A stretch of DNA of 64,000 nt. Source: Prochlorococcus marinus str. MIT 9312. GTDB lineage: Bacteria; Cyanobacteriota; Cyanobacteriia; PCC-6307; Cyanobiaceae. The notes under the pieces are model-generated. The model did no database searches. It was given only the letters and a program-made list of their open reading frames with translations, and was not told the DNA's origin. Shown here in pieces: positions 21,907 through 50,237 of this stretch; the stretch's first letter is position 1, and every line of letters starts with the position of its first letter. Location: positions 930,001 to 994,000 of the forward strand of contig NC_007577.1 of NCBI RefSeq assembly GCF_000012645.1, read 5' to 3'. Both the position numbers and the translations under genes were made by a program.

Positions 21907-22050
21907 TAACAGAAGAATTTAACAATCCATAATCTAACTAATCAAATTACTAATTTGTAATGACGTTTCTCATTATTTTTGAAGAAAACATATATGTTTA
22001 TTATATTCAGGATTTAATATGTATTTATATATTTCTAAAAATCCTCAAAA

Positions 22051-22141
22051 AAAAAGATCCCTAATAAAGAGATCTTTTTAAAATTGATTTAAATCAAGTG
22101 TTTCCTTGTTTCCACTGAAATAAATCAATTCCTCCTACACA
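22051..22141 (-). ncRNA. Yfr2-family small RNA
   Basis: On the minus strand, from about 22141 to 22051, the RNA would start near GUGUGUAGGAGG and carry the doubled GGAAACAAGGAAACA motif (22099-22113) in the loop of a long stem whose outer arms are AATTGATTT and AAATCAATT. The hallmark of the cyanobacterial Yfr2 RNA family is this GGAAACA repeat in a hairpin loop. It ends with a stem AAAAGATC / GATCTTTT and a run of T on the minus strand. The exact 5' end is inferred; a possible -10 box lies near 22148-22153. Confidence 0.8.
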
Positions 22142-22212
22142 CATATTTAATATCACATCAATTTATAAGATACGTAATACCTTTTAGACCTCTATCTTAA
22201 CTGTCACATGGC

Positions 22213-22324
22213 AAAAAAAACAAAAAGTACTCAAACATCGAGGTCGGAGTACTTTTAAAGTTATCAGAAAAAAGTGTGTGAGGAGTTTCTGATGTATTTA
22301 ATTTACTCCGTAGGTAATTTAAAA
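22213..22324 (-). ncRNA. Candidate small RNA with a Yfr1-type CUCCUCACAC motif
   Basis: Read on the minus strand, a TATACT -10 box (22331-22336) is followed by a hairpin ATCAGAAA / TTTCTGAT (22263-22270 with 22286-22293) whose 15-base loop holds CTCCTCACACAC. A second hairpin, AAAAGTACTC / GAGTACTTTT (22223-22232 with 22247-22256), precedes a long T run, a good terminator. No coding frame fits. The motif is the one conserved in Yfr1, but here it is inside a loop rather than between two stems. It lies beside the Yfr2-family RNA on the same strand. Confidence 0.6.
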
Positions 22325-22367
22325 GGCTACAGTATAAATTACTAATTATTTAAATCTTTCAGAAAAA

Positions 22368-23253: not shown

Positions 23254-24039
23254 TTATTTGCGAAGTTTAGGAATCAAAAGAGATGCGACACAAATAACAC
23301 TAATTGCAGGTCCAGGCGACAAATTAAAGACTATAGAGAGAATAAAGCCCAGAAGTGAGATGCATAATCCAAAAAATGAAGACCTCATCATTGCAATTCT
23401 TAAACTATGAGCCTTATTAATCCCTAATAGAGTTGGGGTAGAAAGAAGAGCAATAACAAGAATTACTCCGACTGCTGACATTGAACTAACAATTACTAAT
23501 GCCGTCGTAAAACTCAAAGCAAGATTTAATAAAGAAACGTTTATACCACTAGCGGATGCACCTTCTGGATCCAATCCCACATAAACAACCTTTTCATATC
23601 CAAAAGTCATTAAAAGTATAAATACTAAAAAAGCAATTATTGTTCTAAGTAAATCTCCAAAATTTGCTGTCAATAAATCGCCAAATAATACTGCCTCCAA
23701 ATCAATCCTTATTCCGAGTAAAGGGATTATAAGGACCCCAAACCCAAGCATTCCAGCGAGAATAGTATTCATAACTGCTTCATAATTTTCACTTTTTCTA
23801 TTAGTTAAACTTTCCGCAATTACTGAGCCCAGAAGACCACTTATAACACCACCAATTGAGGGGTGAATTCCAAGCGCTAGTGCGAGAGCAAGTCCAGGCA
23901 ACACGCAATGAGAGATTAAATTAACTTGTAATAATCTCTTATGAGTGATTAATACAGTTCCCATAGCTGGGCATAAAATCCCGGAGAATATAGTTATTAT
24001 TAATGGAACCAGCCACCAGTTGTTATTAATAAAAGACAT
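23254..24039 (-). CDS. znuB: Zinc ABC transporter permease
   Basis: 261 residues of the ABC-3 metal permease family with about eight membrane segments. Characteristic stretches include GTVLITHKRLLQVNLISHCVLPGLAL, GFGVLIIPLLGIR and a GLDPEGASASGINV coupling-loop region before the later spans. With znuC and znuA nearby it forms a zinc uptake transporter; manganese is a possible alternative metal. Its start (24039) is only 17 bases from the zur start on the other strand, so its promoter is within or near zur, or it is made from the znuC transcript. Confidence 0.9.
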   Translation of the reverse strand: MSFINNNWWLVPLIITIFSGILCPAMGTVLITHKRLLQVNLISHCVLPGLALALALGIHPSIGGVISGLLGSVIAESLTNRKSENYEAVMNTILAGMLGFGVLIIPLLGIRIDLEAVLFGDLLTANFGDLLRTIIAFLVFILLMTFGYEKVVYVGLDPEGASASGINVSLLNLALSFTTALVIVSSMSAVGVILVIALLSTPTLLGINKAHSLRIAMMRSSFFGLCISLLGFILSIVFNLSPGPAISVICVASLLIPKLRK

Positions 24040-24056
24040 TATTCGAATGATTCGGT

Positions 24057-24491
24057 ATGATCAAAAATACGGGACAAAAAAAGATTTCGGAAACAATGGT
24101 AACTAATTCTGACATTACCAAAAGACAAGAACAACTTCTTGAAGAACTTAATAAATGCGAGGATGAATTGACTGGTCAAAAGTTGCATAGACAATTGATA
24201 GAAAGAGGAAAGGTTATGGGACTGACGACTGTTTACAGGAATCTTCAAGTTCTGATAAAGCATGGCTTAATACGTTCTAGACATCTCCCAACTGGAGAGG
24301 TTCTGTACACTCCCGTAGATAGAGATATTCATCATTTGACCTGTGTTCAATGTGGTGAGACATCAAAAATGGAAGGATGCCCGGTAAAAGATATTCATAC
24401 ACCCAAAACAAATCCAAAGAAATTCCAATTGTTGTTTCATACCCTCGAGTATTTCGGGCTTTGCCAAAACTGTTATCAAGCTCAGAATTAA
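24057..24491 (+). CDS. zur: Fur-family zinc regulator (Zur)
   Basis: 144 residues. The winged-helix DNA-binding part contains TTVYRNLQVL (residues 57-66) and two CxxC motifs, C96/C99 and C136/C139, form the structural zinc site; HHLTC is the start of the dimerisation part. Fur members bind a palindrome when metal-loaded. The zinc transporter genes on both sides make Zur the best reading. M14 (ATG 24096) is a possible later start that would leave more promoter space. It lies on the strand opposite to znuB and znuC, between them. Confidence 0.9.
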   Translation: MIKNTGQKKISETMVTNSDITKRQEQLLEELNKCEDELTGQKLHRQLIERGKVMGLTTVYRNLQVLIKHGLIRSRHLPTGEVLYTPVDRDIHHLTCVQCGETSKMEGCPVKDIHTPKTNPKKFQLLFHTLEYFGLCQNCYQAQN

Positions 24492-24504
24492 AAAGGAACA
24501 TTCT

Positions 24505-25275
24505 CTAATCACAGAAATTATTTTCGTTTATAGAGCTAATGTTTATTGCCTCTAATTTATCTTTTATTTGGTCAGGACTACCAACTGCCAAAACACTTTT
24601 ATCAAGAACGATAACTTGATCATAGTTATTTAAAGAATCGCCCCAATCATGGCTACTTACGAGCAAAGAAAGTCCCGCATCCGCAAGTTGACGAACAATT
24701 TTAAGAAAATCTTCCTTTGCAGGTGGGTCCAAAGCTGCACAAGGTTCATCTAAAAGAAATATTTTTGCCGGGGACATAAGAGTTTTTGCTAATAGAGCTC
24801 TTTGCTGCTGTCCTCCTGAAAGAGAATCGAGTCTTCTATTAGCCAAACTTGCAATGCCTACTCTCTGCATTGTCGCCTCTAATTCACAACATTTATTAAT
24901 CCAAGAATTAGGATATGCTAGAAGAGTCTTAATTTGAAATGGGTTATTACTTCTTGATTTTGAATACTTTATTTGACCAAGAGATACCAATTTTTCAACT
25001 GTAATGGGGAACTTCCAATTCATAGAACTTCTTTGAGGCATAAGTGCGACAAGAGCTCTAGATCTATATAAATTTTCACCGTCAATTTTTATTTCGCCTT
25101 TATCTGGAGTATTTTGTCCTTGCAAAATTCTCAAAAGAGTTGATTTACCTGCGCCGTTTGGGCCAACTAACGCTGTTAGAGTTCCAGGTTTAATCTCAAC
25201 CGATACCTTATTCAAAACTGGCTTACTTTTTTTTGCGTATGCAAAGGTTAAATTTTCAGCGACTAAAGTAGCCAT
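24505..25275 (-). CDS. znuC: Zinc ABC transporter ATPase
   Basis: 256 residues with Walker A GPNGAGKST (38-46), signature LSGGQQQR (152-159) and Walker B FLLDEP (173-178), followed by the H-loop in SSHDWGDS. It supplies ATP hydrolysis for the ZnuB channel. It is divergent from znuA with a 136-base shared region that has a Zur-like palindrome. Its 3' end is 13 bases from the zur 3' end. Confidence 0.93.
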   Translation of the reverse strand: MATLVAENLTFAYAKKSKPVLNKVSVEIKPGTLTALVGPNGAGKSTLLRILQGQNTPDKGEIKIDGENLYRSRALVALMPQRSSMNWKFPITVEKLVSLGQIKYSKSRSNNPFQIKTLLAYPNSWINKCCELEATMQRVGIASLANRRLDSLSGGQQQRALLAKTLMSPAKIFLLDEPCAALDPPAKEDFLKIVRQLADAGLSLLVSSHDWGDSLNNYDQVIVLDKSVLAVGSPDQIKDKLEAINISSINENNFCD

Positions 25276-50181: not shown

Positions 50182-50237
50182 AAAAAAAGCCCGAATAATC
50201 GGGCGATTTAGTGTGTGAGGAGTATGGGGTTTCCCCC
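50182..50237 (-). ncRNA. yfr1: Yfr1 regulatory RNA
   Basis: On the minus strand the RNA begins GGGGGAAACCCC (a 5' stem-loop), then ACTCCTCACACAC in the single-stranded part, then GCCCGATTATTCGGGC with a T run (terminator). Two stems flanking the ultra-conserved ACUCCUCACAC is the definition of Yfr1, and its place between guaB and trxA is the known location in picocyanobacteria. Yfr1 acts by pairing its unpaired motif with target mRNAs. Confidence 0.97.

Follow-up and report, generated by a model that had tools for sequence, protein, structure and literature searches.

The window analysed here, a 64,000-nucleotide stretch of the Prochlorococcus marinus str. MIT 9312 genome, carries on its minus strand two tandem small RNAs that very probably make up the yfr18-yfr5 pair of Prochlorococcus, with Yfr18 as a base-pairing regulator and Yfr5 as its near-complementary binder, together forming a node in the Yfr1/Yfr2/Yfr10 titration network described in the literature. 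The pair is real and was already described in 2008, and hence is not new. The evidence from this analysis consists of family membership, orthology, predicted structure, conservation and complementarity; expression of Yfr18 (PMC2518516) and the interaction of a Yfr2-family RNA with Yfr1 and Yfr10 (PMC6778093) are published for MED4. We infer that Yfr18 itself binds Yfr5 and mRNA targets in MIT 9312. What is added to the known RNAs is modest, and lies in a census of their loci in relatives.

The upstream RNA, Yfr18, was recovered in an Rfam search as a member of the Yfr10 family (RF02362) at 22212-22293(-), scoring 58.4 bits against a gathering cut-off of 43 (E 2.2e-6, model positions 1-78). As expected of this family, its copy of the motif shared with Yfr1 and Yfr10 lies in a hairpin loop, and it sits upstream of a Yfr2-family gene, the arrangement given for Yfr10-family RNAs of high-light strains (PMC6778093). 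An 8-bp stem, AUCAGAAA/UUUCUGAU (22263-22293(-)), is predicted to close a 15-base loop, CUCCUCACACACUUU, in which CUCCUCACAC is displayed. The motif itself, ACUCCUCACAC, occupies 22276-22286(-). This 11-mer (ACTCCTCACAC) occurs only three times in the 1,709,204-base genome, in Yfr18, in Yfr1 (window 50213-50223) and, at 1173499, in the genome's other RF02362 copy, and the reversed pattern used as a control does not occur at all, so the presence of the motif in Yfr18 is beyond chance. None of 200 shuffled sequences was as stable as the predicted 114-nt fold of Yfr18 (z -3.8), while the 31-nt motif hairpin by itself was less striking (z -2.35; 6/200 shuffles).

Yfr18 has its own -10 box, TATACT (22331-22336(-)), with a predicted transcription start near 22324; at each of the six columns the base found in the window is kept in 46-55 of 55 relatives. 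It also has its own intrinsic terminator (22212-22256(-)), a 10-bp stem, AAAAGUACUC/GAGUACUUUU, followed by a T run, as seen in the predicted fold and the alignment. These sites of yfr18 and yfr5 were not picked up by generic scans for sigma-70 promoters and for terminators. The earlier note on this DNA had described a second carrier of the Yfr1 motif with its own -10 box and terminator and with the motif in a 15-base loop, and each of these points is borne out by the results above. It had also set this loop against the presentation of the motif in Yfr1, correctly, as the fold of the window's Yfr1 (RF01116, 50186-50239(-), an Rfam match) holds the motif in the linker between two stems, a linker also described in PMC6778093. 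Yfr18 thus shares the ACUCCUCACAC motif with Yfr1 but differs in displaying it in a hairpin loop, and RF01116 has no match at the Yfr18 locus. The yfr18 leader holds a GGAG (window 22306-22309(-)) complementary to the CUCC of the motif, and GGAG is found in the leader of 36 of the 55 relatives; it could shield the motif, yet the motif is open in most predicted folds.

Much of this has precedent in MED4. Steglich et al. 2008 reported that the Yfr1 motif is common to Yfr10, Yfr12 and Yfr18, with two changes in Yfr12, which was termed a mutated variant, that these RNAs adjoin Yfr2, Yfr4 and Yfr5, respectively, that their motif is predicted to be single-stranded, and that they can form base pairs, with one bulged C, with the Yfr2-Yfr5 5' ends (PMC2518516). 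The RF02362 matches in genome G015 tie the family to the published genes: one (346661-346738(+)) coincides exactly with the printed position of MED4 Yfr10, and another (972241-972321(-)) overlaps the published MED4 Yfr18, complement(972284..972388) (PMC2518516), which is tabulated there between Yfr5 and PMED4_11681. The window locus can be aligned with the MED4 Yfr18 locus (L103) on both flanks, and three of the window's flanking frames show 90%, 59% and 80% identity to it. Genomic place, adjoining Yfr5 and flanking genes are thus all shared, and on the strength of this synteny we assign the pair as the orthologue of MED4 Yfr18 and Yfr5. The two strains have in common the RNA families, gene order, neighbours, predicted looped motif and complementary tail of the pair (MED4 data from PMC2518516), and differ by strain-to-strain variation in the leader and terminator sequences. 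A 35-base pattern of the locus was also found in Prochlorococcus MIT 9314 and in two Prochlorococcus sp. AG-347 genomes.

These results bear directly on the one claim of the earlier note that proved wrong, namely that the upstream RNA is new. An undescribed RNA carrying the Yfr1 motif would fit with the Yfr18 locus being by far the lower-scoring of the two RF02362 matches in this genome (58.4 vs. 104.1 bits). Its score is nonetheless above the cut-off of a curated family, and the locus is syntenic with MED4 Yfr18, for which homologues in MIT9301, MIT9515, MIT9312, AS9601 and MIT9215 were tabulated in 2008 (PMC2518516), making a new RNA extremely improbable. The other points of the note were already published for MED4. 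Yfr18 and Yfr10 proper are alike in the AUCAGAAA ... UUUCUGAU hairpin that displays the motif in a loop, in having a terminator and in the Yfr2-family gene downstream. Yfr10 occupies another place in the MED4 genome, has another terminator sequence and, in MED4, scores 99 bits compared to 58.4 for the Yfr18 of the window.

Expression of MED4 Yfr18 was documented by Northern analysis and 5' RACE, with lengths of 29 and 76 nt (PMC2518516). The published 5' end (972388) precedes the motif by 75 bases and the conserved -10 box by 23, and therefore does not fit a start directed by that box. Either transcription of the long form in MED4 begins from a different promoter, or the tabulated length is that of a processed RNA or a sum (29 + 76 = 105).

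The downstream RNA, Yfr5, belongs to the Yfr2 family (RF01701, Cyano-1), with a match at 22077-22144(-) that scores 80.4 bits (cut-off 41; E 1.1e-12), in agreement with synteny and with the Yfr2-type RNA placed on the minus strand by the earlier note. Its start is predicted near 22149 and its intrinsic terminator (22047-22079(-), from sequence and predicted fold) ends near 22047. A long stem carries a 12-base loop, within and next to which lies GGAAACAAGGAAACA (22099-22113(-)), and the 5' tail, GUGUGUAGGAG (22132-22142(-)), is complementary to the Yfr1/Yfr10 motif with one bulged C. The tail is predicted to be unpaired except for roughly its last base, giving Yfr5 the score, loop and free complementary 5' tail that characterize the Yfr2 family. 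The Yfr5 fold was more stable than all 200 shuffles (z -5.2).

Predicted pairing between the accessible segments was rarely matched by shuffled controls. The duplex of the Yfr18 loop with the Yfr5 tail reached -12.8 kcal/mol and that of the Yfr1 linker with the same tail -12.7 kcal/mol, values equalled by 22 and 7 of 5000 shuffled pairs, respectively. The gain upon cofolding was -10.8 kcal/mol for Yfr18-Yfr5 (6/300 shuffles) and -16.1 kcal/mol for Yfr1-Yfr5 (0/300), the controls in both approaches being single-base shuffles. Duplex energies of the full-length RNAs, calculated without internal folds, were no better than those of shuffles (358/1000 reached the Yfr18 value and 532/1000 that of Yfr1). 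This measure is uninformative in such AT-rich sequence and was set aside; the pairing argument consequently rests on accessible segments and cofolding.

We propose that Yfr18, by holding CUCCUCACAC open in its loop, would pair with complementary stretches of mRNAs in the manner of Yfr1 and Yfr10. The Yfr5 tail would in turn bind Yfr18, other Yfr10-type RNAs and Yfr1, and would thereby keep them off their targets. By analogy with MED4, where this was reported for Yfr2 with Yfr1 and Yfr10, Yfr5 could titrate both Yfr18 and Yfr1. Lambrecht et al. 2019 contrasted the motif in a loop (Yfr10) with that between two stem-loops (Yfr1), and reported that Yfr2 interacts with both RNAs, relieves repression of PMM1121 by Yfr1 in E. 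coli and blocks the binding of Yfr1 and Yfr10 to ppa; the targets of Yfr1 and Yfr10 are in part common, and Yfr10 increases in darkness (PMC6778093). The suggestion in the earlier note that the second carrier may compete with or support Yfr1 was right, such interplay of Yfr1-, Yfr2- and Yfr10-type RNAs being already in print (PMC2518516, PMC6778093). Since the main text of PMC6778093 does not name Yfr18, its targets are extrapolated here from those of Yfr10.

The search in relatives proposed in the earlier note found both motif and stems conserved, so the lack of conservation that it had named as telling against its reading is absent. Over 55 aligned sequences, 98.2% of cells in the yfr18 motif stem and 96.8% in the terminator stem are paired, compared to 43-58% for slid controls. 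No pair of the motif stem has changed on both sides, and we accordingly rejected covariation as proof of the motif hairpin, whose stem is too invariant to yield compensatory changes. In the terminator stem, two of ten pairs show a two-sided change, one of them gapped in 49/55 rows; RNAalifold gave four such pairs out of 19, all in the terminator. Shuffles reached the five covariation totals in 17 to 83 of 500 trials, making covariation support weak. The motif is predicted to be open in a hairpin loop in 50/55 of the best single folds of relatives, the other five being without the motif hairpin; its probability of being unpaired has a median of 1.00, with a mean below 0.9 in 4/55 relatives.

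Within the genus, 170 of 200 genomes have an RF02362 match at E 0.01, and in 164 it exceeds the cut-off. For the family, the corresponding numbers are 51 of 200 genomes and 38, and 5 of 31 genera have a match. An earlier count found CTCCTCACAC at 49/50 syntenic loci, with two rows one base out of register; these loci had been chosen by Yfr10 score, and we therefore prefer a count anchored on the RF01701 partner, which avoids choosing loci by the feature under test. This census covered the 99 RF01701 matches from 60 near-complete genomes of the genus, 58 of which have a match, and the sequence preceding each loop was read for up to 330 bases. Loci with a match to a protein flanking the pair in the window were classed as yfr18/yfr5; the hairpin was scored as present with up to 6 mismatches out of 29 to the Yfr18 or Yfr10 form, and as a remnant with up to 10.

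The 55 yfr18/yfr5 loci, found in 54 genomes, proved highly uniform. All have the hairpin, the gene order (with the motif 160-172 nt before the Yfr2-family loop) and an identical GTGTGTAGGAG tail, and the CTCCTCACAC motif is intact at 52 of them. The 44 other Yfr2-family loci, in 38 genomes, have a hairpin within 6 mismatches at 27 and an intact motif at 14. If the comparison is restricted to the 34 other loci that retain a hairpin remnant, 14 have an intact motif (Fisher p 3e-8, a value that is too small given that the genomes are related). An inexact motif at these loci may still function. Twenty-two of the 26 genomes that lack an exact motif at the other loci have an intact Yfr18. No RF01701 match was found beside the flanking genes of the window in 4/58 genomes, and no intact motif upstream of any RF01701 match in 5/58; Yfr1 is present in all 60 near-complete genomes. 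Yfr18 is thus the uniformly retained loop-type carrier of the Yfr1 motif in this genus.

The census also bears on the idea that Yfr18 is chiefly a cis partner of Yfr5, in which case the read-through transcript would be what matters and the motif would hold or mature Yfr5 in cis. The constant order and narrow motif-to-loop spacing at all 55 loci would suit such a role, as would the 270-nt common precursor of Yfr10 and Yfr2 noted for MED4 in a table footnote (PMC2518516). Yfr18 has its own terminator, however, and an exact tail (GTGTGTAGGAG or GTGTGAAGGAG, both forms having been picked after seeing the data) is kept at 39 of the 44 other loci, compared to only 14 with an intact upstream motif. 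The tail is therefore independent of a cis partner, and we consider a chiefly cis role very unlikely compared to action of Yfr18 as a base-pairing regulator titrated by Yfr5.

Half of the other loci (22/44) share upstream sequence with the yfr12/yfr4 place of MED4, with the motif intact at 5 of these 22. Only two, in MED4 itself and in G106, have the flanks of MED4 yfr10, both with intact motifs, and two share flanks with yfr3; the remainder are unplaced or share only one flank of the second copy in the window's genome, placing by 600-base flanks being a weak test in this variable region. Motif loss is thus found mostly at the yfr12-like place, where the MED4 copy was already termed mutated (PMC2518516), and Yfr10 proper seems to be rare, not decayed. 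To speak of decay 'at the Yfr10 locus' would be too broad, given the yfr12-like half of these loci and the intact motifs at both yfr10-flanked ones. Yfr10-type hairpins with variously damaged motifs are seen outside the yfr18 place at L047, L049, L086, L098, L105, L108 and others; most Yfr2-family RNAs downstream of them retain the complementary tail, and many have the upstream DNA of the yfr12 place.

We lean towards the view that selection keeps the Yfr18 motif and the fixed Yfr5 tail, that copies at other Yfr2-family loci are losing the motif, that the place of MED4 Yfr10 is rarely met, and that targets found with MED4 Yfr10, which served as bait in published target searches, would fall to Yfr18 in many strains. 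A small practical outcome of the census is that studies of the Yfr1/Yfr2/Yfr10 network in these strains ought to cover Yfr18, a copy retained far more uniformly than the other loop-type ones.

Searches for carriage of the pair by phages gave no sign of it: exact scans of viral contigs returned 3 and 2 stretches, and the DNA of these five had no Rfam match at E 0.01, while blastn against phage records returned eight records, all near E 0.9 with 9-14% query coverage. Elsewhere in the window, 23254-25275 holds a putative metal-type ABC transporter permease (23254-24039), a putative Fur-like regulator (24057-24491) and a putative ABC ATPase (24505-25275), named by eye from their translations.
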